Assembly: GCA_012521755.1 (NCBI GenBank)
Contig: JAAYLV010000071.1
Span: 1-32,157, forward strand
Length of the DNA: 32,157 nt
Direction: 5' to 3'
Origin: Bacillota bacterium
GTDB taxonomy: Bacteria; Bacillota; Limnochordia; JAAZLZ01
Positions 4,165 through 18,155 of this stretch are shown in pieces. The stretch's first letter is position 1; each line of letters opens with the position of its first letter. The notes below the pieces were generated by a model. That model was not told the origin of the DNA, ran no database searches, and saw nothing but the letters and a program-made list of their open reading frames with translations. The translations under genes were made by a program, and so were the position numbers.

Positions 4165-4202
4165 GGCCTCAGAGAGTCTATGGAAAGGGGTTGGCGAGCT
4201 CA

Positions 4203-4556
4203 ATGCGCCGAAAAACCATCGCAATCTTTCTCGTTTTTCTTTGCTTGAGTGCCTTTGTGTTGCCTGTTGCAGCCGAAACTCGCACCTATACTGTTAGGAA
4301 CGGAGATACTGTCTATCTAATAGCCAAGCGTTTTGGGTTGACTACTCAGCAGCTAATCGCCATGAACGGTCTCGAGGCCCCGTATGAAATCTACCCTGGT
4401 CAAGTGCTGGTCCTGGGAATGGAGGAAGGTCCTGAGGCCCAGTCGGCTTCGCCGGAGAAGGGCGGCGGGTTGTTCGGGCTCAACTGGGGCGATGTGACTC
4501 AAAGCTACGGTTGGCTTGCCCTATTTGCCATCTTGAAGCTACTAGGCGTCATGTAG
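4203..4556 (+). CDS. Secreted LysM-domain protein with C-terminal hydrophobic helix
   Basis: Signal peptide MRRKTIAIFLVFLCLSAFVLPVAAE; LysM YTVRNGDTVYLIAKRFGLTTQQLIAMNGLEAPYEIYPGQVLVL; C-terminal YGWLALFAILKLLGVM. The ORF track begins at TTG 4191, but ATG 4203 fits the RBS and signal peptide better. Confidence 0.85.
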   Translation: MRRKTIAIFLVFLCLSAFVLPVAAETRTYTVRNGDTVYLIAKRFGLTTQQLIAMNGLEAPYEIYPGQVLVLGMEEGPEAQSASPEKGGGLFGLNWGDVTQSYGWLALFAILKLLGVM

Positions 4557-4603: not shown

Positions 4604-4819
4604 ATGGGGGTGTGGGAGCCTGTGGCTACCGCGTATCGAATCGGAGGGAGGCAACTCCAAGAGACGCCCGCATCGCCAGAAGCAATGGGATATGCTGCTG
4701 GCCTCTTGGTCCGGGATATGATGAAGGCAGCTGAGGACTATGTCTGCGAGTTGGTTGTCCTGAAGGTTCGGCGGGGATTCCAGGAAGCCCTCAAGGAACG
4801 AAACGGGGAAAGGCCGTAG
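4604..4819 (+). CDS. Small hypothetical protein
   Basis: 71-aa ORF in an otherwise empty interval before a strong hairpin; no recognised domain and weak RBS support. Confidence 0.35.
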   Translation: MGVWEPVATAYRIGGRQLQETPASPEAMGYAAGLLVRDMMKAAEDYVCELVVLKVRRGFQEALKERNGERP

Positions 4820-4834
4820 AAGACCTTTCCCCGT
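4803..4834 (-). terminator. Terminator hairpin at the 3' end of the TonB/SLH operon
   Basis: Perfect 11-bp inverted repeat acggggaaagg(4803-4813)/cctttccccgt(4824-4834), 10-nt loop; the minus-strand read continues into TTTCGTTCCTTG; 6 bp from the SLH gene stop. Confidence 0.7.
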
Positions 4835-4840
4835 CTGTGA

Positions 4841-6337
4841 CTAGTTCATTAATCCCAACACCATGCCGAGCAGCGCGGCTACCCCAAGGAATGTGCTCGT
4901 ATTCTTGAGCCCCTTAAGCTCTTTGTCCGTCCTATCGCGGTAGTTGGCAAAATCCTGTTGCAGATCCTGCAATTGCCGTTCCAGCTTCTTCTCCCGCATC
5001 ATGGAAGCTGCTAGCTGGGCGGAGATTTCATCGCCGATCCTAAGTTCGGAATCACCTAAGCGGGCCTGCAAACTGGCCACCTGTTCCTGGAGAGCCGAAC
5101 CCATGGCCTGGAGGCTTTCCTCCATCAAGATGGCCTGTTCGTTGAGGTTGACTACCTGCTGCCTGAGCTGGGCCAGCTGTTCATCGGTTTGCCGCCGCTG
5201 GGCCGCCTCCGTCTGCAGGCCCTGGGCCAGTTCCGCAAGTCCCTTATCCAGCCGGCCAATACTGTCCTGGTGCTCGTTTAGCTGCCTTACCAGCTGTCCA
5301 TCGGCCCGCGCGAGGGCCTCTCCCTGGGCCTTGAGGGCATCGGCTAGCTCTGCAATGGACTGCTGCAACAGGGCTGCTTCCTGGGCCCTTTGGTCCAGTT
5401 CGTCCTGTTGTTGGGCAATGTCCGCACTAAGCTTGTCGCTCGCGGCCAGGAGGGATTGAGTCTTTTCATTCAAGGAGCTGATCTGTTCACCGTAAAGGCT
5501 CAGCTGCTGCTCTTGCTGGCGCAGCTGGGATTCAAGGAGTCCAATGGCCACTGCCTTCTCTTCCAATCCAAGCTCTAGATCCCGGCTCAGCTTAGCAACG
5601 GCACTTTCCAGGGAGGCAGACACATCTTGCTCTTGTCGCGCTAGTTCACCGGTGATATCCTGCTCCAGGGCGGCGAGGCGTTGTCCCAACCGCTGCAATT
5701 CTTGTTCGAGATTCTCCTGCCGCTCCGATGTTTGGGTCAATTCCTCTCTGGTTGCCACGGTTTCCCTGGTGGCCGCTGCGTTTTCTTCTAAGGCTTTGAC
5801 TCGAGCGATTAGATCGCTTGTGTCGACGCCGAGTTGGTCTAGGGCCTCTTTGTGGGCCTCCAAGAGACTGCCAAGGTCATAGGCCTTCTCCTCCAACTGG
5901 GTCGCCAGGGCGATGAGCTGGGTGATCTTCTCTTGACGTACTGCCCCTTCTTCCTCAAGGAAGACGAGTCGCTGGTCTAGTTCCTCTACCGACGCGTATA
6001 CCTTCACCAAGTCATCGCGAAACTCGGTGGATAGCCGTCGCAGCAGTTGCAAATCGGATTCGGTCACCGTTGCCCTTTCTTGTTCCATGTTTTCGAGGAG
6101 TTTCGCCACCGTTGCTGCAAAGGTGAACCGATCGACGGACCTGGTTCCGTCAAAGGTGCCATCTTCGTAGACGGCCAGATAGCCTTTCTCGATTAGGGTG
6201 GTGACTGCTTCGTAAGCCCAATGGTCTGGAGGTACATCTTTCACCTGCAAATTCTGGGCAGAAGCTGCCCCTGTTCCCATCAGCCCTGACAGGGTGAGAA
6301 TAATCAGCCAAGCCAACAACATCCTGCATCTTTTCAT
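4841..6337 (-). CDS. SLH-domain, long coiled-coil envelope protein with C-terminal TM (Omp-alpha-like)
   Basis: Signal peptide; one SLH domain (VKDVPPDHWAYEAVTTLIEKGYLAVYEDGTFDGTRSVDRFTFAATVAKLLENM); about 350 aa of Gln/Glu/Leu heptad-rich coiled coil; C-terminal hydrophobic TFLGVAALLGMVLGLMN. Confidence 0.85.
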   Translation of the reverse strand: MKRCRMLLAWLIILTLSGLMGTGAASAQNLQVKDVPPDHWAYEAVTTLIEKGYLAVYEDGTFDGTRSVDRFTFAATVAKLLENMEQERATVTESDLQLLRRLSTEFRDDLVKVYASVEELDQRLVFLEEEGAVRQEKITQLIALATQLEEKAYDLGSLLEAHKEALDQLGVDTSDLIARVKALEENAAATRETVATREELTQTSERQENLEQELQRLGQRLAALEQDITGELARQEQDVSASLESAVAKLSRDLELGLEEKAVAIGLLESQLRQQEQQLSLYGEQISSLNEKTQSLLAASDKLSADIAQQQDELDQRAQEAALLQQSIAELADALKAQGEALARADGQLVRQLNEHQDSIGRLDKGLAELAQGLQTEAAQRRQTDEQLAQLRQQVVNLNEQAILMEESLQAMGSALQEQVASLQARLGDSELRIGDEISAQLAASMMREKKLERQLQDLQQDFANYRDRTDKELKGLKNTSTFLGVAALLGMVLGLMN

Positions 6338-6349
6338 CTGTCTTCCCCC

Positions 6350-8371
6350 TCAATGATCCGACTGTACTTTAATATCGACAAGGGTCCCTGCGGCTTCGAC
6401 TTTGATCGGGTTGCCATCAACATCCTGGACAATCAGATTATTGATGGAGATGGGCGTATTCGTTGCCTCGCGCTTTGCCCGAAAGCGTATGGTGGCTACC
6501 GTTCCCGAGGCCCTCTGCTGCGGGCCTAGAGGATGACGATTGCCAGCGATGGCAGCCTCGCCTACCCCTGGATCGACCAAGGGGGGCGCCCAATCCAGAT
6601 ACTGGAGCCTCTCCCCCTCCTCCTTATGGACAAAGAGGGTGCCCCGGTCGATGCCCAAGGGACCGCCTACAATTTGGAGAGCATCCGGGTCGTAGACAAT
6701 ATCCAGGGAAATGCTGAAGAAGTCGGGGATGTTCGTTGCCAAGACATCGACGGTGAAGAAATCACCGGCATTGATTTCACCGTCTGGAGGCTGCACCCAC
6801 ACCCGGGGTTTGAGAAGGGGAACGAGAATGAAGTTGTTGGCCACGACCGCGTCGGCATTGTAGGCCTCTGTCTTGACAGAATAAGGCAGATGGCCTGTGA
6901 AGCCAATGGGCCGCAATGACCAGCTCACCTGGGATTCTTCGTCCGGTCCCAAGTTGCCTACGTACTTGCCCCCTCCCTCACCGCCGGCGAGCCCCAAGAC
7001 AGGGCTGCTAAACTCTGCTTTGACCCGGTAAGCGTCGGCTCCCCCGGTATTGCGAATTCTGGCCGTGATCCGGAACGGCACCGGATCCCAGCGCTCGAAC
7101 TTGACTCCCAGGCCGAGGGGCCCTTCCAAGGAGGTCTCCAGCTTAGGCGGGGCAACGACCGTAATCTTCCTGACGACGGAGTTGGGCTCACTGTTGGTCG
7201 AGCGGACGTGGACAGTGAAGGTCAGCTCCGCCGGTGTGTCGGAAGTGGGCACCAACATCCATTGGGCCTGGGCGGTAACCTTAGAGGAGAGATGTCCAAG
7301 CTCCTTCTCCATCTCGCCGGCGACTAGCCGCAGTCCCTCGCCGGGTTCGATGCTCGCCACCACATCCCGGGCTTCGCCCGTGCCGGTGTTTTCAACGTAG
7401 GCGACAACGGGGAAGGGTTCCACTCCCCTCCTGCCGGCGACCACTGAAGCCGGTGAGGTGACTCCCAAGGACAGCTCCCCTGGAGCGATGGTGATCCCGC
7501 CAAGACCATAGTAAGCCACATAAACCCGTTCTTCCCCGGGGGCCAGGACGACTGGCTCCCACCTTAAGGCCAAGGCGCTGTCCAGTTCAAACTCGCCCTT
7601 GCGGGTGAAGTCCCGGGCAGGCTGCACGTCGAATTCCCACAAGGAATCGGCCAGGCTTCCCCAGTTGGTGAAAAAGGCCAGGTCCGGGACGGTGACATCG
7701 CCGCCTTTCAATGTACCTTGGGCCATGACGCGAGGGTCGCTCAAGGAGTCAAAGGCCTGCCAAAACACTGGCATTTGCGCCGCGCGATATAACCGGTCCG
7801 TCAACACTTCTGCTTCCTCAACACGAAAGGGTGCGCCATCGTTTGCTCCGAGCATCGTATCTAAAACAATCCGGAGCCCCACCTGGCGGCCACGCTCGGA
7901 GACATTCTTGATGGTATATACAATGCGCGCAGTGTCCGCGAGTCCCGTCGTCGGACTCTTGGTGAACCCCAGGGCCTGTTGCACCTCGATACCGTTCAGT
8001 TCACAAACAGTATGTATCTCATTGCCCTTGATTGTAGGAGGAGTGACTATCCTCCCGTAGCGGCCGGTCCGTCCCGCCCTGGTTTCCGTTGGACCGCCAA
8101 AGACGAAATTCACCCCGTCGATCCTGACTGTTGTGTAGGAAGTCCAGGGGTTGTCGCCCCCGTAAATCAGGGGTTTGCTTTCATCACCTGGCCGATAGGG
8201 ATCTCCCCCGGTGGTGTTCACCGAAAAGCGACCGGTATTCTGTTCCCGGGCGTTAACGACGATCGCGATGTAGTCGTTGGACAGGGTCACGGTGTTGTTT
8301 TCTGCAATAGCCGGCGCAGCCCCCAAACACAGGCATAGCAGAAGGGTGAGGGCAATCAATTTGGGTCGCAT
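6350..8371 (-). CDS. Secreted multidomain protein with C-terminal cohesin-like domain
   Basis: Signal peptide MRPKLIALTLLLCLCLGAAPAIAE; middle beta-sandwich/CARDB-like repeats (VVAYVENTGTGEARDVVASI; FRITARIRNTGGADAYRVKAEF); C-terminal INAGDFFTVDVLATNIPDFFSISLDIVYDPDALQIVGG...SGTVATIRFRAKREA resembles cohesin domains. Confidence 0.75.
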   Translation of the reverse strand: MRPKLIALTLLLCLCLGAAPAIAENNTVTLSNDYIAIVVNAREQNTGRFSVNTTGGDPYRPGDESKPLIYGGDNPWTSYTTVRIDGVNFVFGGPTETRAGRTGRYGRIVTPPTIKGNEIHTVCELNGIEVQQALGFTKSPTTGLADTARIVYTIKNVSERGRQVGLRIVLDTMLGANDGAPFRVEEAEVLTDRLYRAAQMPVFWQAFDSLSDPRVMAQGTLKGGDVTVPDLAFFTNWGSLADSLWEFDVQPARDFTRKGEFELDSALALRWEPVVLAPGEERVYVAYYGLGGITIAPGELSLGVTSPASVVAGRRGVEPFPVVAYVENTGTGEARDVVASIEPGEGLRLVAGEMEKELGHLSSKVTAQAQWMLVPTSDTPAELTFTVHVRSTNSEPNSVVRKITVVAPPKLETSLEGPLGLGVKFERWDPVPFRITARIRNTGGADAYRVKAEFSSPVLGLAGGEGGGKYVGNLGPDEESQVSWSLRPIGFTGHLPYSVKTEAYNADAVVANNFILVPLLKPRVWVQPPDGEINAGDFFTVDVLATNIPDFFSISLDIVYDPDALQIVGGPLGIDRGTLFVHKEEGERLQYLDWAPPLVDPGVGEAAIAGNRHPLGPQQRASGTVATIRFRAKREATNTPISINNLIVQDVDGNPIKVEAAGTLVDIKVQSDH

Positions 8372-8394
8372 CTCCTATCCAACCTCCCGCATGT

Positions 8395-9435
8395 TCATAG
8401 CACATACTCGATGTCCTCAAAGTGTACGTCTACATGGTAAGCTTCGCCGCTGATCGGATCCTCTCGCTTGTCAAAAACGATGGTCACCTTAACCTTATAG
8501 GGTCTCGGAGCTGACCGGAAGGCCCAGCTTTCCGCGATAGTGCGCCTGGCGACCTGGTCCAAACGCGAGTCCGAAGAAGGAGAGGCGATCTCCACCTGGG
8601 AGATGCGTCCCCGTTCATCCACATGGACGAGAAGCTCCACCCTTCCCGTCACACCTTCGTGCTGGGCATTCTTGGGATAGACCGGTACACCTCCGGCGTG
8701 CCACATATCACTCCCTGAGGGGGGCGGCCCCAATTCCGGCTCCTCTCTCCCTTTCGGGGTTTCAGTCGCTCCTCCGTCACCTGGTACGGAAGTGTCCGGC
8801 TGCGGGTCCGCTTCCTCAACCCTCTCTTCCGTAGCCTTGGCCTCCTGGATCTCCTGGCTAGGCTGCGCGGGAGGCGGCTGGACCGGCGGCGTCGGCGCCT
8901 GTTCTGGTCTTGCCTGGGTATCTACCAAGGGCACCTCTGTTCCCCGATCGCTGGTGAGAAGCTCCTGCTCGCCTGTCCGCTCCGCGGTTGTTGGAGTCTC
9001 TGCGGGCGTTGGTGGCTTTTCTTCAACGGGTGGTTCAACCTTTGGTCTTTCCTCCGGCTCTGGCACTACCTCCCTCGTTGGGGGCTCCTCCTTAACTTCC
9101 ACCGGCTTGTCCACCTTGGGCGGTTGTGGCTGCTCTGCTTGTTGTTTGGCGGCCGGTTCTTGGGGTTTAGGCGGCGTTGGCTCAGGCTTAGGTTGGGGCT
9201 GGGGCGGCGGTGAAGGCCGCACAGCCTGAGGCGTTCCCCGGGGTTGAGCCGGCTGCGGTGCACTTACATTAATGACTTGTACCACGCCGCCATGCTCCAG
9301 TGAGGGGTGGCCGATGGATAGATCCCATGCCAAATAGGGATACAGTATGAAAAGCAATACATGCAGAAGGATGGATATGAGAAAAAACGGACTCAGAGCT
9401 TGCTCTGACTCGTCATAAATGTACATGTCGCTCAC
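8395..9435 (-). CDS. tonB: TonB-family energy transducer
   Basis: N-terminal TM (FFLISILLHVLLFILYPYLAW), long Pro/Glu-rich spacer, C-terminal VPVYPKNAQHEGVTGRVELLVHVDERGRISQVEIASPSSDSRLDQVARRTIAESWAFRSAPRPYKVKVTIVF; GTG start with GGAGG RBS. Confidence 0.88.
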   Translation of the reverse strand: MSDMYIYDESEQALSPFFLISILLHVLLFILYPYLAWDLSIGHPSLEHGGVVQVINVSAPQPAQPRGTPQAVRPSPPPQPQPKPEPTPPKPQEPAAKQQAEQPQPPKVDKPVEVKEEPPTREVVPEPEERPKVEPPVEEKPPTPAETPTTAERTGEQELLTSDRGTEVPLVDTQARPEQAPTPPVQPPPAQPSQEIQEAKATEERVEEADPQPDTSVPGDGGATETPKGREEPELGPPPSGSDMWHAGGVPVYPKNAQHEGVTGRVELLVHVDERGRISQVEIASPSSDSRLDQVARRTIAESWAFRSAPRPYKVKVTIVFDKREDPISGEAYHVDVHFEDIEYVL

Positions 9436-9457
9436 CTATCCGTTCCTCCAGCGGGAT

Positions 9458-9865
9458 TCAATTAACACGATCCCTCTCAACAGCTAGGCCGAGCCGAAAT
9501 CCGCCCCCGGCCCGCACTTCATCCATAGCTTTGACTATATGTTCGTAGCGGGTCTCTTTATCAGCTTTGATGATTACAAACAGATCCGGCCTACGCTGCA
9601 GGGCTTCCCTAACCCGACCCTGGATGTCCTTCGTTGCTACCGCTTTACCGTCAATGTACATAGTTCCAGTCTTCGCAATAGTGATAGTGATGCTGCTGGG
9701 CTGCCTCTCGGTGGCCGTTACTGCCTTGGGCAGCTCTACATTCAGTCCCGCCGGGTTGATTTCAAAGGAGGTAAAGATCATGAAAAAAACCAAGATGGAA
9801 AAAATGACGTCAATCAAAGGGGTGATCTCTAACCGGGGATTCCGCTTGCGGCGTGTGACGAACAT
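9458..9865 (-). CDS. exbD: ExbD/TolR family biopolymer transporter
   Basis: RNPRLEITPLIDVIFSILVFFMIFTSF with the conserved TM Asp, then a periplasmic ExbD domain; 1-nt TGATG overlap with exbB. Confidence 0.93.
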   Translation of the reverse strand: MFVTRRKRNPRLEITPLIDVIFSILVFFMIFTSFEINPAGLNVELPKAVTATERQPSSITITIAKTGTMYIDGKAVATKDIQGRVREALQRRPDLFVIIKADKETRYEHIVKAMDEVRAGGGFRLGLAVERDRVN

Positions 9866-10479
9866 CAGCCCTCACCCCGTTTTTCCAGGAAATACAAAAG
9901 GTCAGCGGAGCGACGATTCATTTCCGCAACGTTGCGATCGATGAGGCTTGAGAGATAATAATACAGGGCCATGGTGGGGATGGCGATAATCAGCCCTGCT
10001 GCGGTCGTGATCAACGCTTCGGCAATTCCTAAACTAAGCTCTTCCGGAGTGTGTGCGCCTTGCATGTAGGCAAGGACGTTGAAGCTCCTAATGATCCCCG
10101 TCACCGTCCCCAGCAGGCCAAGCAACGGTGCGATGGTGACGATGCTGTCTAGGACAACCATGCGTCGCTCCATCTTGTAAAGTTCGTGGGCGCCCACTTC
10201 CTCTAGATGCTGGCGTATTTCCTCACGGGGGCGATCATAATGGGCGATACCTGCCGCCAAGATGGCGGCCACCGGACCGCGGGACTTCTTGGCGATCTGC
10301 ATAGCTTCAAGTACCTTCCCTTGCTGCAAGGAAAGCTTGATGTCGTCCATGAGATCTTCCGTATCGACCCTCGACCGCCATAAATAAATGAACCGTTCAA
10401 GACCGACGGCCAAGGCCACGACAGACGAGAGAACTAGTGGAATCATTACGGGGCCGCCTTTAATTACGATATCCATCAT
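9865..10479 (-). CDS. exbB: ExbB/TolQ/MotA proton-channel family protein
   Basis: MMDIVIKGGPVMIPLVLSSVVALAVGLERFIYLWR...IAPLLGLLGTVTGIIRSFNVLA...GIAEALITTAAGLIIAIPTMALYYYL. Start moved from 10545 to ATG 10479, preceded by GGAGGGAATGCCC. Confidence 0.93.
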   Translation of the reverse strand: MMDIVIKGGPVMIPLVLSSVVALAVGLERFIYLWRSRVDTEDLMDDIKLSLQQGKVLEAMQIAKKSRGPVAAILAAGIAHYDRPREEIRQHLEEVGAHELYKMERRMVVLDSIVTIAPLLGLLGTVTGIIRSFNVLAYMQGAHTPEELSLGIAEALITTAAGLIIAIPTMALYYYLSSLIDRNVAEMNRRSADLLYFLEKRGEG

Positions 10480-10681: not shown

Positions 10682-10900
10682 ATGAAAGGGAAAAAACGTT
10701 CTCTGACTCCCTTCGAATGGGAGCTGGAGCGATATAAATACGAAGTTGCGGCAAAGCTGGGATTGAAGGAGAAGGTTGAGGAACTGGGATGGAAAAACTT
10801 GACTGCTCGAGAGTGCGGCCGGGTAGGGGGCAAGATGGGCGGGAAGATCGGCGGCCGGACAGTGCTCGAAAGAATCAAGAAGCTTAAACGGCAGGACTAG
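10682..10900 (+). CDS. Alpha/beta-type small acid-soluble spore protein
   Basis: 72 aa from ATG 10682 (RBS GGAGGTGGGAGAGTC). YKYEVAAKLGLKEKVEELGWKNLTARECGRVGGKMGGKIG matches the SASP alpha/beta pattern (YE.A..LG...G.LTAR..G.VGG.M). The longer supplied ORF start at 10388 is unlikely. Confidence 0.85.
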   Translation: MKGKKRSLTPFEWELERYKYEVAAKLGLKEKVEELGWKNLTARECGRVGGKMGGKIGGRTVLERIKKLKRQD

Positions 10901-11509: not shown

Positions 11510-12373
11510 CTAGTAGTTCTGTCCACTAATGGAGAGCTTAAGGCCTTTAGACTGATACAGCCTTGCCAGTTCGGATCTGCTGATGCCCTTTGATCCAAGT
11601 TGGGCTCCTTCCCTAGCCCCGGGACCATGGAAGTCCGATCCACCGGTGGTCAAAAGCCCTTTCCTTTCGCAAAGCTCCCGATAATAGGTCGCTTGTTCCT
11701 CTGTATGATCCGGGTGGTAGACTTCGAGGCCGGCGACTCCCAGTTCGCAAAGCTTCACGACCAGCTCCTCGTCACCCAGAAGGCCCGGATGGGCCAAGAT
11801 GGGAATGCCGCCGCTTTGCTCAATGAGCTCAATGGCCTCCTCTACCGACAGCTTGTAGCGGGGAACGTAAGCTGGACGACCCCGACCGAGCAGTCTACGA
11901 AAGGCCTCCGTCACCGATGGGACGACGCCCCTTTCCACCAGGCAGCGGGCCACGTGCAACCGCCCGACACTGCCATTGCCGGCTAGCTCCATGACCCTCG
12001 TCAAGGGAATGGGATAGCCCATTTGATTGAGGATGCGGACCATCTCTTCGACCCTTTCCAAGCGCTCTTCCCGGAGGAGCTTGAGGGTTCGAAGCAGCGG
12101 TGGGTGACGGTGGTCCAACAGGTAGCCGAGCAAGTGAATCTCTGCACCTTGCCGATCGATGCTTAGCTCGAGTCCTGGGATGACCAACAGGTCCAGGGAT
12201 GAAGCTGCTGCCTGGGCTTCATCGACGCCGGCTACGCTGTCATGGTCGGTGATGCTGATGGCTTCAAGGTTGAGATGGGCTGCTAACTTGACAACTGCTC
12301 GGGGACTGAGGGTGCCATCGGAGGCGGTCGTATGTACGTGGAGATCAATTGGTGCGGCGACAGGATGGGGCAT
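11510..12373 (-). CDS. PHP-domain phosphoesterase (TrpH/YciV-like)
   Basis: IDLHVHTTASDGTLSPRAVVKLA, ISITDHDSVAGV, LAHPG, GGSDFHG; start ATG 12373 with GAAGGAG RBS. Confidence 0.88.
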   Translation of the reverse strand: MPHPVAAPIDLHVHTTASDGTLSPRAVVKLAAHLNLEAISITDHDSVAGVDEAQAAASSLDLLVIPGLELSIDRQGAEIHLLGYLLDHRHPPLLRTLKLLREERLERVEEMVRILNQMGYPIPLTRVMELAGNGSVGRLHVARCLVERGVVPSVTEAFRRLLGRGRPAYVPRYKLSVEEAIELIEQSGGIPILAHPGLLGDEELVVKLCELGVAGLEVYHPDHTEEQATYYRELCERKGLLTTGGSDFHGPGAREGAQLGSKGISRSELARLYQSKGLKLSISGQNY

Positions 12374-12390
12374 TAGGCAAAGACTCCTTC

Positions 12391-13161
12391 TCAACTTAAC
12401 ATTTGACGCAAGGTCCTGAGGATGGTCTTTTCGATCCGGGAGACCTGGGCCTGGGAGATCCCCAGTTCATTTGCTATTTGCGTTTGCGTCTTCTCCTGGA
12501 GAAAGCGCCAGATGAGGATCTTTTGCTCCCGGGGTGCTAGGCGAGTGATTACCTGTCTTAAGGCGAGGCCCTCCACCGTCTGCTCTCCCTCATCGGCAAT
12601 AACACCCTCTAGATGAATAGGTTGTCCTTCATCTTCCTTGATCACATCTTGCAGGGAACTAACCGGTTGGGTGCTGGCGAGGGCAACGGCTACTTCTTCC
12701 CTATCCACGCCCATCGCTTGACTGATTTCGCTAATTGTGGGCGACCGGTTCAGGGTCTGGGTCAAATCGTCCCGAGTCTTGATCGCCTGGGAGGCTAGAT
12801 CCTGCAGAGCCCGGCCAACGGTGATAGGCCCTTCCTTCCGCAAGTATTGTCTGATCTCCCCCATGATCAACGGAACGGCATAGGTGGAAAAGCGTACATC
12901 ATAGCTTAGGTCAAAATTATCGATGGCTTTGAGCAGTCCTAAACAGCCAATCTGGAACAAGTCCTCAATGTCCCGACCCCGTCCGGCGTAGCGTCGGGCG
13001 ATGCTGAGGACCAGGCGCAAGTTGTGTTGCACGAGGGTGTCCCTAGCTTCCCGATCGCCTCCTTGGGCTTGCTCCAACAGCAAACGGGTCTTTTCATCCC
13101 CGAGCAACGGCCTTTGGGGCAGGCTAATATCGGCGCGAGCTTCGTCTACCACCGGCTTCAC
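12391..13161 (-). CDS. sigF: RNA polymerase sporulation sigma factor SigF
   Basis: Sigma-70 regions 2, 3 and 4 (RYAGRGRDIEDLFQIGCLGLLKAIDNFDLSYDVRFSTYAVPLIMGEIRQYLR...ANELGISQAQVSRIEK); position after spoIIAA-spoIIAB. Confidence 0.95.
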   Translation of the reverse strand: MKPVVDEARADISLPQRPLLGDEKTRLLLEQAQGGDREARDTLVQHNLRLVLSIARRYAGRGRDIEDLFQIGCLGLLKAIDNFDLSYDVRFSTYAVPLIMGEIRQYLRKEGPITVGRALQDLASQAIKTRDDLTQTLNRSPTISEISQAMGVDREEVAVALASTQPVSSLQDVIKEDEGQPIHLEGVIADEGEQTVEGLALRQVITRLAPREQKILIWRFLQEKTQTQIANELGISQAQVSRIEKTILRTLRQMLS

Positions 13162-13619
13162 ACCCCGTCCGGTCTTGGGGCTCTTACGTATTTGACCATG
13201 TGGATTTTGGTGCCTTGTCCCGGTTGAGATTGAATGGCAAGGGCATCCATGTATTCATTGATAAATACCAGACCAAGGCCCATGCGTTCCTCCGGGACAG
13301 TAGTATAGGCCGGCTCTAAGGCCTTTTCTACATCTTCAATGCCGACGCCCTCATCGGTCACTTCAATCTCTAGTCGGTCCGGGAAGATTTGACAGCACAC
13401 AACTACCTGGCCAGTCCCTTTGCCGTAAGCGTGGATCACTGTATTGGATACTGCCTCCGATGTCGCCACCTTGATCTCATCCAATTCATCCAAGGTAAAA
13501 TCTAGCTGGGAGGCAAAGACGGCCACGGTGGTGCGGGCAAAGGCCACATTCTCCGGGAGATTCGGAAACTCCATCCGCATATAGTTTCGAGCTGCCGACA
13601 CGGTCCTATCCCCTCTCAT
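13158..13619 (-). CDS. spoIIAB: Anti-sigma F factor SpoIIAB
   Basis: HATPase_c/GHKL (KVATSEAVSNTVIHAYGKG...VTDEGVGIEDVEKALEPAYTTVPEERMGLGLVFINEYMD) and genomic context. Confidence 0.95.
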   Translation of the reverse strand: MRGDRTVSAARNYMRMEFPNLPENVAFARTTVAVFASQLDFTLDELDEIKVATSEAVSNTVIHAYGKGTGQVVVCCQIFPDRLEIEVTDEGVGIEDVEKALEPAYTTVPEERMGLGLVFINEYMDALAIQSQPGQGTKIHMVKYVRAPRPDGV

Positions 13620-13954
13620 AGGTGTTCCAGCGCCCTTTCCGCATTGGGAAAGAGTGGCATGATTTTGTCCAAGCCGGACAACTCGAGGATCCTTTGCACT
13701 TGGGGCTGGGCATTGACCAACAGCAGCTTGCCTCCCCGCTCCCTAATCCGTTTGTAGCGGCCTAAGATGGCCCCTAAGCCAGAACTATCGATGAAGTCCA
13801 CCTCGCTCAGGTCTAAAATGAGGTTAGCCAGACGTTCATAGGTTTCCAATTCCTGGTCCACCTGTGCCCGGAAAATAGGGGCCGTCAGCAAGTCCAGTTC
13901 TCCCTTCATTGTAACCAGGAGAGCGGTTCCACGCCTTTGGTGATAGATCTCCAA
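13616..13954 (-). CDS. spoIIAA: Anti-sigma F factor antagonist SpoIIAA
   Basis: STAS domain (GELDLLTAPIFRAQVDQELETYERLANLILDLSEVDFIDSSGLGAILGRYKRI). Start re-placed from TTG 14002 to TTG 13954 (RBS GGGGGT, 6-nt spacing) because the upstream part overlaps a sigma-H promoter. Confidence 0.9.
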   Translation of the reverse strand: MEIYHQRRGTALLVTMKGELDLLTAPIFRAQVDQELETYERLANLILDLSEVDFIDSSGLGAILGRYKRIRERGGKLLLVNAQPQVQRILELSGLDKIMPLFPNAERALEHL

Positions 13955-13992
13955 AGAATTACCCCCTGCCTTTTGATGTAAAACTTCCCCAA

Positions 13993-14021
13993 TATTCGCC
14001 AAATTAGATCCGAATTCCTGC
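13993..14021 (-). promoter_or_regulatory. Sigma-H-type promoter of the spoIIA operon
   Basis: Minus strand GCAGGAATT-N12-GGCGAATA fits the sigma-H consensus RnAGGAWWW-N11/12-RnnGAAWW. Confidence 0.8.
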
Positions 14022-14026
14022 TGGGA

Positions 14027-15220
14027 CTAATCCTTGTTGGCAAACAGGCTACGGAGCAAGTCGCGTCCCGTCCCGCGGATGATTTGCCATAGGCTGCCCC
14101 GGGGAACGTCTTCGCCGGCGACCAGGTCTATCCGGCCCAGCTCTTCCCCTTGATAGAGAGCGATGAGGGTTCCAATTACTTGGTCTTTGGACAGGGGGGC
14201 GGTGAGATCCTCTTCCAGAAGGAGCTGCCTTTCAACGCTATCGCCAGCAGCCCGAGGCAAGGCTACCTTGAGGGATTGGGCGGCGACGATGGACACCTGT
14301 TCCGCTCTCCCCCGCTTGACCTTGGCTTGGCCCAAGACTTCCCCTTCCCTTGCGACCACTTCCGCTCGGTAGACTCGAAAACCGTAGTCGAGGAGGGTCC
14401 GGATGTCTTCTTCCCGCTTGGCGCTCGACTCTGCCCCCAACACAACGGCAATGAGGCGCAGATCCGACCTTTCGGCGGTGGCCGCAAGGCAATAGCCGGC
14501 TTCCGTGGTGCTGCCGGTCTTGATGCCGTCCAGCCCGGGATATCCGTAGCTGCGCCCAGTCGCGGACATGGTTCGTTCAAGCATGCGGTTGTAATTCCAG
14601 AGGACCACTTCGTTTTTCCGTCCTGGTCTGATGACATAATGGTAGGTGCTCACCAGGTCCATCAATAGCGGTACGCGGAGGGCGTGTCGGGACAAGGTGG
14701 CTATGTCGTAGGCGGTGGAGTAGTGCTCTCCTTTGCTTGAGGGTAGTCCATTGCTATTGACAAAGTGAGTGTTTTGCAGCCCCAACTGGACGGCCCGTTC
14801 ATTCATGCGCTTGACGAAGGCTTCTTCAGAACCTGCCATGAACTCGGCCAAGGCCACCGATGCATCGTTGGCTGAACCGACGGCGATCGCGTACAAGGCA
14901 TCCTTGAGGGGCATGTGTTCCCCCGCTTCCCACCAGATTTGTGAACCGCCCATGGAACTTGCATAGGGGCTGGCTACAATGGGATCGTCTAGGTGGAGTC
15001 GGCCGGCCGCCAGTTCCTCCAAAGCCAATACCAAGGTCATGATCTTCACCAGACTAGCCACAGGCTGGCGGCGATGGGGCTCCTTCTCATAGAGAACCCG
15101 GCCGCTAGCGGCCTCTATGAGGATGGCCGAGGGCGCTGAAAGGTCCAGCTCCTGGGCAAATGCCAGTCCGGCACCAAGCAAACAGACCAACAGGCCGGCC
15201 AAAGGTTTACGCCAGTCCAT
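14027..15220 (-). CDS. dacF: D-alanyl-D-alanine carboxypeptidase (DacF-type)
   Basis: Signal peptide; SLVKIMT (SxxK), SAND (SxN), KTG motif (GIKTGSTTEAGYCLAATAER); C-terminal PBP5-C-like domain; adjacent to spoIIA. Confidence 0.92.
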   Translation of the reverse strand: MDWRKPLAGLLVCLLGAGLAFAQELDLSAPSAILIEAASGRVLYEKEPHRRQPVASLVKIMTLVLALEELAAGRLHLDDPIVASPYASSMGGSQIWWEAGEHMPLKDALYAIAVGSANDASVALAEFMAGSEEAFVKRMNERAVQLGLQNTHFVNSNGLPSSKGEHYSTAYDIATLSRHALRVPLLMDLVSTYHYVIRPGRKNEVVLWNYNRMLERTMSATGRSYGYPGLDGIKTGSTTEAGYCLAATAERSDLRLIAVVLGAESSAKREEDIRTLLDYGFRVYRAEVVAREGEVLGQAKVKRGRAEQVSIVAAQSLKVALPRAAGDSVERQLLLEEDLTAPLSKDQVIGTLIALYQGEELGRIDLVAGEDVPRGSLWQIIRGTGRDLLRSLFANKD

Positions 15221-15271
15221 CTGCCTCCCCCCTTTTTCTATTCAACAAAAAATATTCCTAGTTGGGCGGGG

Positions 15272-16591
15272 TTATGCCGGTGGGTTGGAACTGGCTGGTA
15301 TTCGTCCTAAGATCAGGGGCATTGGCCCGGGACGGCCGCCAATCTGGAAAGATCCCTGGACGGTGTGGATCTGGTCTTGATTGATGGTGCTGTTGTTTTG
15401 CAGGGTGGCCAACACTTCCCCCGCCTCCACATAATCGCCGATCTTCTTCGCGAGGACGATGCCCGCGGTCGGATCGATGGGGGCATCCTTGGTGGCCCTC
15501 CCCGCCCCGAGTCCCATGGCGACCATGGCTAGCTCCCTGGCATTAAGGGCGGTTACGTAGCCGGCTTGGGGTGCCTTGACGTCGACTACTGTTGCCGGTT
15601 GGGGAACTAGCTTAGGATCGTCGACGACCTTTGGGTTGCCGCCCTGGGCCTTTAACCACTGGACCATTTTCGCCAAAGCCGCTCCCGAATCGAGAAGCCG
15701 TGCTAAGGTTGCCTGTCCTTCCTCGGGATCTGTTGCTTTGCCGGCAAGATACAGCATCTCGCCGCCCAAAGCCAAACACAACTCCCTGAGATCCCTAGGC
15801 CCTTCGCCCTTCAAGGTGGCGATGGCTTCCTGGACTTCAAGGGCATTGCCTATTGTCCGTCCCAAGGGCTGGTCCATGGCTGTAAGGAGGGCACAAGCGC
15901 GTCGACCCGCCTTGCGGCAACTCTCCACCAGCAATTCCGCCAAAGCTCGCCCCTTCTCCTCATCCTCCATGAAGGCTCCTAGGCCGCACTTAACATCAAA
16001 AACGATGGCGTCAGCCCCGCCCGCGAGCTTCTTCGACAAGATGCTAGCGGCAATGAGGGGTATGGATTCGACGGTAGCGGTGGCGTCCCTGAGGGCGTAG
16101 AGCTTCTTGTCGGCCGGGGCTAGGGACTGTGTTGCGGAAGCCACGGCAAGGCCGATCTCCTCCACCGTTTGGATGAATTCCTCGGTGGAAAGTTCAGTGC
16201 GAAACCCGGGGATTGACTCGAGTTTGTCGATGGTGCCGCCGGTGTGGCCAAGTCCTCGCCCTGACAGCTTCGCTACCGGGATGCCAGCCGCCGCGACGAG
16301 GGGCGCCAGCACCAGGGTCGTCTTGTCACCGACGCCGCCGGTGGAGTGCTTGTCCACCTTGATGCCGGGAATAGAGCTTAGATCGAGCCTCGGGCCCGAG
16401 TCGGCCATGGCCATGGTCAACGCCGCCGTTTCTGCAGCTGACATGCCTTGAAAGAAAACGGCCATGGCCCAGGCAGCCATTTGGTAATCGGGGACCGCAC
16501 CTTGTGTGTAGCCGTCGATCAACCACTTGATCTCCTCTGGGGAAAGCTCCGCTCCCTGCCTCTTCCTCAGCAAGATGTCATAAGCTCGCAT
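15272..16591 (-). CDS. pdp: Pyrimidine-nucleoside phosphorylase / thymidine phosphorylase
   Basis: MRAYDILLRKRQGAELSPEEIKWLIDGYTQGAVPDYQMAAWAMAVFFQGM; KVDKHSTGGVGDKTTLVLAPLVAAAGIPVAKLSGRGLGHTGGTIDKLESIPG. Start M7 of the supplied ORF with GAGGGGGA RBS. Confidence 0.95.
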   Translation of the reverse strand: MRAYDILLRKRQGAELSPEEIKWLIDGYTQGAVPDYQMAAWAMAVFFQGMSAAETAALTMAMADSGPRLDLSSIPGIKVDKHSTGGVGDKTTLVLAPLVAAAGIPVAKLSGRGLGHTGGTIDKLESIPGFRTELSTEEFIQTVEEIGLAVASATQSLAPADKKLYALRDATATVESIPLIAASILSKKLAGGADAIVFDVKCGLGAFMEDEEKGRALAELLVESCRKAGRRACALLTAMDQPLGRTIGNALEVQEAIATLKGEGPRDLRELCLALGGEMLYLAGKATDPEEGQATLARLLDSGAALAKMVQWLKAQGGNPKVVDDPKLVPQPATVVDVKAPQAGYVTALNARELAMVAMGLGAGRATKDAPIDPTAGIVLAKKIGDYVEAGEVLATLQNNSTINQDQIHTVQGSFQIGGRPGPMPLILGRIPASSNPPA

Positions 16592-16605
16592 AGTATCGTT
16601 CCCCC

Positions 16606-17484
16606 TCACTTGGCCCGCGGATGGGCCAGATCATACACTTCCCTAAGGCGCGTCCGTGTCAGATGGGTGTAAATCTGGGTGGTGGAAATATCAGCATGAC
16701 CCAACATTTCTTGTACGGAGCGAAGGTCGGCCCCATTCTCCAACAGATGGGTGGCAAAGCTGTGTCTTAGGGTATGGGGAGTGATGGATCGTGAGATGCC
16801 TCCGCGGGCAGCATACTCTTTGATCAACTTCCACACCCCTTGGCGGGTTAGGCGTTTGCCCCGTCGATTAACGAATAGGGGTGAATCACTGGTCACCGAC
16901 GGTCGGGAGGCCAAGTACCTTTCTAGCCAATAAACGGCCACCTCCCCTAGGGGGACAATGCGCTCCTTGCCTCCTTTGCCATGGCAGCGCAGGTACCCCA
17001 AGTCGAGCTTGACATGATCGCAATCCAGTCCCACCAGCTCAGATACCCGCAGGCCCGTCGCGTACATTACTTCCAACAGGGCCTTATCCCGCAACCCCAA
17101 AGGGGTGTCCACATTGGGTTGGGCCAGCAGGGTCTCAACTTCATCGGGGGAGAGGACCCCTGGGAGCTTCCACTCGCCGCCTGGGCTTTCCAGGGTTCGG
17201 GTCGGGTTGCTCTCTAGATGCCCCTCCCGCACCAAGAAGGAAAAAAAAGATCTGATGGCAGCCAGCTGACGGCAGATGGTGCTATTGGCTTTGCCTTGGC
17301 TGCGCAGGACTAACAGGTACTTGCTGATATCCTCCGCCGTGATCCTGTCTGGCGGCATCGGCAGGAAATCCGCGAGCTGACTGAGATCCCGCTGGTAGGA
17401 CTCGACGGTATTGGCCGCCAGGCCCTTTTCTACGGCAATGTGGTGGATGAATTCCTGAATGAGTAGATTGAGGGTTTCTGCCAT
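16606..17484 (-). CDS. xerD: Site-specific tyrosine recombinase XerD
   Basis: N-terminal SAM-like core domain; TPHTLRHSFATHLLENGADLRSVQEMLGHADISTTQIYTHLT catalytic R..H..R..Y. Confidence 0.93.
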   Translation of the reverse strand: MAETLNLLIQEFIHHIAVEKGLAANTVESYQRDLSQLADFLPMPPDRITAEDISKYLLVLRSQGKANSTICRQLAAIRSFFSFLVREGHLESNPTRTLESPGGEWKLPGVLSPDEVETLLAQPNVDTPLGLRDKALLEVMYATGLRVSELVGLDCDHVKLDLGYLRCHGKGGKERIVPLGEVAVYWLERYLASRPSVTSDSPLFVNRRGKRLTRQGVWKLIKEYAARGGISRSITPHTLRHSFATHLLENGADLRSVQEMLGHADISTTQIYTHLTRTRLREVYDLAHPRAK

Positions 17485-17537
17485 TATTCTCCTCTCCTTG
17501 CCCGATCCTTCGACGCGAGGGTCCCCATCCCTGCCCG

Positions 17538-18155
17538 TTAAATGAGGTAGGTATTGACTAGATCGATGAGCACGGGAGTGATGTAAGCCTCGATGAAGGC
17601 TGCGCCGACCAACAAACCCGCGGCCAGGAGATTGGTGGAGGTAGTGATGAGGAACTGTTGGTAGACGTTGATGCTGCGATTTCCAGCTAAGACCCGCAGG
17701 ACGGACCAGGAGAAGCCCATCGCTGCCGCCCCGGCAATTATTATGGCCGGCAGGATGATGATGTTATGCGGCAGGATTGAGGCCAAGGCCACGACTATTC
17801 CTCGCAGGAACATCTCCTGCACAAGAAAGCCCAAGGTAAAGCCGAAGGTAAACCCTCTGATGAAGATGATTACCAACACTAGGGGCGCTCCCAGGAGGGA
17901 AAGCCCCAGCAGCCACATCAACCCTACGGTCTTGACCACATTATCCATGATGGAGCGACGGGCAAGGGCTTCCTTGGACAGAGTTGTGCCCGGATCGAAG
18001 GTCTGGAAGAAGCTCGAAAGATAGTGGCTCAACTCCTCCCTTTGTTCCACGGCCACATGTCTGACGGCTAAGCTGCCGAAGACCATCCCCATGACAAAAA
18101 TGGTGCACACGAAAAAGTAAGCCACGACCCGCCGGTGAAAATGGCGCCTGAACAT
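17538..18155 (-). CDS. spoIIM: Stage II sporulation protein M
   Basis: Multi-TM SpoIIM family: FVMGMVFGSLAVRHV...RGFTFGFTLGFLVQEM...ILPHNIIILPAIIIAGAAAMGFS. Confidence 0.93.
   Translation of the reverse strand: MFRRHFHRRVVAYFFVCTIFVMGMVFGSLAVRHVAVEQREELSHYLSSFFQTFDPGTTLSKEALARRSIMDNVVKTVGLMWLLGLSLLGAPLVLVIIFIRGFTFGFTLGFLVQEMFLRGIVVALASILPHNIIILPAIIIAGAAAMGFSWSVLRVLAGNRSINVYQQFLITTSTNLLAAGLLVGAAFIEAYITPVLIDLVNTYLI

Follow-up and report, generated by a model that had tools for sequence, protein, structure and literature searches.

What does a TonB-type motor act on when its genes are followed by those of a cohesin-bearing secreted protein and of an SLH/coiled-coil protein? The question is raised by exbB-exbD-tonB-COH-SLHcc, a five-gene operon found in a 32,157-nucleotide stretch of DNA from a Limnochordia genome (hereafter, the window). 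A sequence-only reading of the window had proposed that the operon encodes a self-contained, energy-driven envelope apparatus. Our data support this proposal through the universal linkage of the five genes, the presence of BamA/Omp85 and the separateness of receptor-linked TonBs.

The operon and its surroundings

All five minus-strand ORFs were confirmed in the window by an ORF check of the sequence, and their coordinates agree with the short gaps and 1-nt overlap described earlier (Table 1); each product has a Pfam match. The perfect 11-bp hairpin reported at the 3' end was found too. It is likely a transcription terminator, judging from its letters and unscored: it does not figure in our terminator scan because the scanner accepts loops of 3-8 nt and this one measures 10 nt.

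The operon lies on contig C71 of a 1.96-Mb genome that is 93% complete. The genes from which a spore-former had been deduced (SigF, SpoIIAB, SpoIIAA, SpoIIM and alpha/beta SASP) were all confirmed. An alpha/beta-type SASP gene (10682-10900, plus strand) is the immediate upstream neighbor of exbB, on the other strand, and the minus-strand block upstream of the operon (11510-18155) encodes SpoIIM, XerD, pyrimidine-nucleoside phosphorylase, D-Ala-D-Ala carboxypeptidase, SpoIIAA, SpoIIAB, SigF and a PHP-type phosphatase. Much of this sporulation neighborhood, along with a GNAT gene, remains beside the operon in related members of the class. A small LysM protein with a signal-like N-terminus (4191-4556, plus strand) is encoded convergently with the operon end.

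Table 1. Features of the operon, and related loci and genomes. Positions are those of the window unless a locus (L) is named.
Feature	Position	Strand	Remarks
exbB	9865-10476 or from 10479	-	ORF open from ATG 10545; likely start 10479 or 10476
exbD	9458-9865	-	1-nt overlap with exbB
tonB	8395-9435	-	GTG start; 22-nt gap after exbD
Extra C-terminal segment of operon-type TonB, past the canonical domain	8398-8460	-	predicted strand
COH	6350-8371	-	23-nt gap after tonB
COH domain 1	7472-8293	-	residues 27-300; beta-supersandwich type
COH domains 2-3, Ig/CARDB-like spacers	6815-7471	-	CARDB just below Pfam cut-off; strands in model
COH cohesin domain	6413-6772	-	residues 534-653; Pfam Cohesin 4.9e-9
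SLHcc	4841-6337	-	12-nt gap after COH
SLHcc SLH domain	6116-6241	-	Pfam SLH 7e-7
SLHcc C-terminal hydrophobic helix	4847-4891	-	116 homologues
Hairpin 3' of SLHcc	4803-4834	-	perfect 11-bp inverted repeat, 10-nt loop, then TTCGTT
COH N-terminal region in giant RHS, lipase/RCC1 or SLH proteins	L183 3954-10169; L185 4030-8487; L186 3571-10305; L188 3-3698
COH and Omp85 carriers without detected LpxC			G000 (the window's genome), G062, G101, G137, G167, G242, G036, G299
COH and Omp85 carriers without detected LpxC, remainder			G078, G150, G177, G227, G251, G275, G116, G074

Linkage among relatives, outer membrane and nutrient receptors

A phylum sample of 301 genomes was searched with COH, yielding 81 matches, 66 of which were full-length-type operon proteins. 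Forty of these 66 loci were retrieved, and every one of them carried exbB-exbD-(tonB)-COH-SLHcc on one strand and in this order. A scan of GTDB contigs gave 259 relatives, with 80 loci among the matches listed; no phylum other than Bacillota was named among these 80 of 259. Carriers among the matches listed were Halanaerobium, Halanaerobacter, Orenia, Natroniella, Fuchsiella, Halonatronum, Candidatus Frackibacter, Limnochordaceae and many Limnochordia or Bacillota MAGs, and the nearest relatives were MAGs labelled Bacillota or Limnochordia. The sequence-only reading had set linkage among relatives as a test of its proposal, and linkage proved universal: once duplicates were removed, the order and strand of the five genes were kept in all 85 distinct loci with enough flank, hence the arrangement is not due to chance. 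It spans about 30 family-level groups and is present in both Limnochordia-type and Halanaerobiales genomes. TonB was recognized by phmmer in 74 of the 85 loci, and an ORF of suitable length fills the gap in the other 11, for which the transmembrane-motif pattern applied was loose and the assignment is based mainly on position and length.

The operon is tied to the outer membrane. Omp85 was present in 66 of 66 genomes with full-length COH, while full-length COH was found in none of the 224 genomes lacking an Omp85 match over the family cut-off. Eleven genomes bear Omp85 and no COH: one is 84% complete, and the other ten come from three families (f34, f65 and f77) that seem to resemble Negativicutes by their receptor content. 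The window's own genome encodes an Omp85 of the BamA type, with an OmpH-like gene adjoining, and therefore possesses outer-membrane machinery; BamA was among the genes for which a check of the same genome had been called for. Electron microscopy has revealed outer membranes in cultivated Limnochordia (PMC11456536). No LpxC was detected in 16 of the 66 COH carriers; the window's genome is one of these, as are all five genomes of family f3 of its class in the sample. This suggests that carriers with Omp85 and without LpxC are diderm Firmicutes devoid of LPS. As a practical aside, full-length COH makes a strong marker, every sampled genome that has it also having Omp85.

The operon is not tied to nutrient receptors. 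No TonB-dependent receptor was detected in 42 of the 66 carriers, and 14 had neither a detected LpxC nor a detected receptor. A second tonB outside the operon was present in 21 of 24 receptor-bearing carriers vs 1 of 42 receptor-less ones (these genomes are not independent of each other), and most of the receptor loci inspected have exbB and exbD, and usually tonB as well, beside the receptor. The window's genome is a case in point: in agreement with the earlier remark that no receptor barrel is encoded in the window, the sole receptor detected in this genome is on contig C40 (locus L157, 1240-9906) and has its own motor, in a block TBDR-exbB-exbD-tonB, behind which lie genes for a periplasmic binding protein and a FecCD-type permease (these two recognized by eye). 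Nitrogenase-like genes (NifH/NifD-type, by eye) come after this block. The receptor-less majority of carriers and the separate receptor-linked TonB systems strengthen the previous claim that the operon motor works on something other than a nutrient receptor. Being tied to Omp85 and independent of both receptors and LpxC, the operon follows the outer membrane itself. These data demonstrate its conservation and, on genomic grounds, argue for its independence from nutrient uptake.

Motor, transducer and the two envelope proteins

ExbB and ExbD matched Pfam MotA_ExbB (E 4.8e-32) and ExbD (E 6e-30), respectively. The pore threonines of ExbB (T148 and T181 in E. coli) and the proton-binding aspartate of ExbD (D25 in E. 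coli) were the same in all 41 operon copies compared. Family and catalytic residues establish, at the level of sequence, that ExbB-ExbD is an inner-membrane proton motor. In a tree of ExbB, with incomplete clade support, operon copies fell mostly apart from receptor-linked ones, seven of which grouped by the Negativicute-type, yet they did not form one clean clade (3 changes). The operon motor scored higher for tolQ than for exbB in NCBIfam, but below cut-off; we rejected TolQ/TolR scores as a Tol signature, since motors linked to receptors in this phylum score alike.

The tonB product has a transmembrane helix with the SxxxH motif (the motor-binding helix), a proline-rich linker and a C-terminal domain (Pfam TonB_C, E 1.3e-13, residues 251-321). 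It continues past this domain: a median of 18 residues follow it in 102 operon TonBs, vs 0-4 in 12 receptor-linked or Negativicute-type ones. The additional segment looks like a strand by its sequence, with a consensus near VxVxFGxVxF. TonB boxes dock on TonB by strand addition. Partners of the TolA domain likewise dock by strand addition, at its last strand (PMC7391070), so the extra strand of the operon TonB may change its partner. The trio exbB-exbD-tonB is common, and an ordinary TonB motor could lie merely beside unrelated envelope genes. We consider this very improbable in view of the 85/85 linkage over so many families, the second, dedicated TonB beside receptors and the operon-specific C-terminus of TonB.

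COH is a secreted four-domain beta protein (AF2 model, mean pLDDT 89). Its cohesin domain was matched by Foldseek to the A. fulgidus cohesin 2xdh (TMt 0.79). When the whole protein was submitted, the top matches were multi-domain beta proteins at a TM of about 0.2, which are meaningless save for the cohesin match. A type I dockerin (Dockerin_1) was found in none of 26 carriers tested, which argues that this cohesin is not cellulosomal and sets COH apart from cellulosome scaffoldins. Domain 1 is the most conserved part of the protein (mean column identity 65%). A PDB sequence search with it gave no match, and no Pfam family was reported over the N-terminal region of COH. PHROGs gave no match. 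By structure, at a TM of about 0.5, it resembles GH94 N-terminal domains, galactose mutarotase-like proteins and the periplasmic domain of YidC. Large surface proteins (RHS, SLH or lipase) from genomes that have no Omp85 contain it too (Table 1), and hence it is not a fold exclusive to outer-membrane bearers.

The resemblance of domain 1 to beta-supersandwich domains of sugar enzymes, together with the classical role of TonB as an uptake protein, could suggest an uptake machine in which COH captures a glycan or another ligand by this domain and TonB energizes its passage via some non-receptor porin. Yet the periplasmic domain of YidC, which is no sugar enzyme, fits the fold about equally, the conserved block contains neither porin nor receptor, and the operon is independent of receptor presence. 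Uptake is, on balance, decidedly unlikely.

SLHcc comprises a signal peptide, one SLH domain, a long coiled coil and a C-terminal hydrophobic helix. All but a few of 116 homologues share the hydrophobic C-terminus, and those few are truncated or masked at contig ends. Lengths ranged from about 220-250 residues in Halanaerobiales to mostly 350-530 in Limnochordia-type genomes, with widely varying coiled coils. Residues 13-131 matched Veillonella OmpM1 (8bys, phmmer 3e-12) and residues 21-226 Deinococcus SlpA (7zgx, phmmer 1e-11); further matches were the OmpM/SlpA-type tether entry 8bz2 and the stalk of the SomB porin family. The predicted stalk of SLHcc is, by these alignments, homologous to those of outer-membrane tethers. 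The likeness to Thermotoga Omp-alpha noticed earlier holds as well: SLH domain, coiled coil and C-terminal anchor are found in the same layout (PMC3387000; PMC9388160), to which the OmpM/SlpA-like stalk is now added. OmpM-like SLH proteins separate from SLHcc are encoded near bamA in relatives, hence SLHcc is not the sole tether there; no OmpM-like protein was found in the window's genome. The other SLH gene detected in that genome (contig C10, locus L180, 529-1806) has at least 2 SLH repeats and no evident barrel.

In which membrane does the SLHcc tail sit? In the chief rival to an outer-membrane tether, the C-terminal helix fixes SLHcc to the inner membrane, SLHcc binds the wall, and the motor moves or loads wall, S-layer or a secreted glycoprotein (COH), while the outer membrane is not acted on; gliding or export machines would be the parallel. 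A C-terminal hydrophobic helix could indeed be an inner-membrane one, and COH domain 1 is found in surface proteins of Omp85-less genomes. A positive-inside analysis was attempted to place the tail and set aside for its ambiguous charge flanks: 35 of 94 homologues were positive after the helix, as this rival would have it, while 59 of 94 had no net charge after it and 77 of 94 were net positive before it, the opposite of positive-inside for an N-out/C-in protein. The perfect co-occurrence of COH and Omp85, the homology of the stalk to outer-membrane tethers and the precedent of Omp-alpha (PMC3387000) also speak against the inner membrane, making this alternative unlikely in our view.

A proposed force system and its known counterparts

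The reading that we favor, and consider somewhat more likely than not, is of a trans-envelope force system, powered by protons, that works on a tether between outer membrane and wall; it would be Ton-derived and Tol-Pal-like, yet without TolB or Pal among its parts. The TolA-TolB-Pal cycle has been proposed to work by the transducer detaching a soluble protein from a tether that binds the wall (PMC7391070). In our model COH would take the place of TolB, and SLHcc that of Pal. The ExbB-ExbD motor would drive the TonB-type transducer, whose C-terminal domain and extra strand would reach COH, a periplasmic rod. SLHcc would bind the wall, or its polymer, by the SLH domain and span the periplasm by the coiled coil, with the C-terminal helix probably sitting in the outer membrane, as proposed for Thermotoga Omp-alpha. 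COH may link TonB with SLHcc or with a different envelope partner, possibly via the cohesin domain. By analogy with the way TolA detaches TolB from Pal, a pull on COH would free the SLHcc tether, re-seat it or shift it, and the outer membrane would thereby stay attached and be drawn in at division or growth sites.

We are evenly divided on a broader proposal: that this is a third kind of force machine at the outer membrane, powered by protons like Ton and Tol-Pal but pulling an SLH-type tether, ancestral to Limnochordia-/Halanaerobiales-type diderm Firmicutes, kept in carriers devoid of LPS synthesis and of nutrient receptors, and confined in our sample to genomes with an outer membrane. TolB (TolB_N) was found in none of 76 diderm genomes. 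Negativicute-type genomes have Omp85 and neither TolB nor COH, so the system is not required by every diderm Firmicute. No Pal was found in the window's genome, in which the only OmpA-family match is MotB; in relatives, PF00691 was uninformative as a test for Pal, most matches being MotB-sized.

The five-gene set is apparently undescribed, and would represent a Ton/Tol-family motor with new effectors. The earlier statement that no such system was known is in line with our searches of the literature on Limnochordia/Halanaerobium motors and on TonB/cohesin/SLH, which gave nothing relevant; a prior mention is possible in Taib 2020, Witwinowski 2022, a 2025 Terrabacteria review or supplements. The main text of the 2016 study of diderm Firmicutes mentions neither ExbB, TonB, TolQ nor Tol-Pal. 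A 2025 survey of force transducers places Tol-Pal in Gracilicutes only and, among diderm Firmicutes, Ton in Negativicutes only, and predicts further outer-membrane-stabilizing systems (PMC12204202). The operon is a concrete candidate for how Tol-Pal-less diderm Firmicutes keep and constrict their outer membrane, and may do in these diderm spore-formers what Tol-Pal does in E. coli. Should the effectors act as proposed, there would be a third outer-membrane force machine, and Ton-type motors would have been recruited to membrane tethering more than once. The operon also bears on the debate over the diderm ancestry of Firmicutes.

Among known systems, PorE and the vWA force transducers of Bacteroidota have also been proposed to be Tol-Pal-like or motor-driven, but their effector domains and taxa are unrelated (PMC12204202). 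Thermotoga Omp-alpha (OmpA1) shares with SLHcc the SLH domain, long coiled coil and C-terminal hydrophobic anchor, a likeness of layout; its gene neighbors that of the porin Omp-beta, where no motor has been described (PMC3387000). OmpM and SlpA tie the outer membrane to peptidoglycan (PMC10628300, PMC9388160), and their SLH domain and adjacent stalk are homologous to those of SLHcc (E about 1e-12), which instead of their C-terminal beta-barrel has a hydrophobic helix and is encoded with a motor. The Ton system has a homologous motor and transducer, yet the operon is not receptor-linked, most of its carriers are receptor-less and its TonB has an additional C-terminal strand. The closest functional analogue is Tol-Pal (TolQ-TolR-TolA-TolB-Pal-CpoB). 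The operon lacks the TolB propeller and Pal, its middle protein is a cohesin-ended beta rod, its tether an SLH-coiled-coil-transmembrane protein, and TonB_C replaces the TolA domain. Both comprise an ExbB/TolQ and ExbD/TolR motor, a TonB/TolA-type transducer, a secreted beta-rich protein and a wall-binding tether; the gene order, from motor to transducer, beta protein and wall tether in one operon, parallels tolQ-tolR-tolA-tolB-pal; and, like Tol-Pal, the operon tracks the outer membrane.
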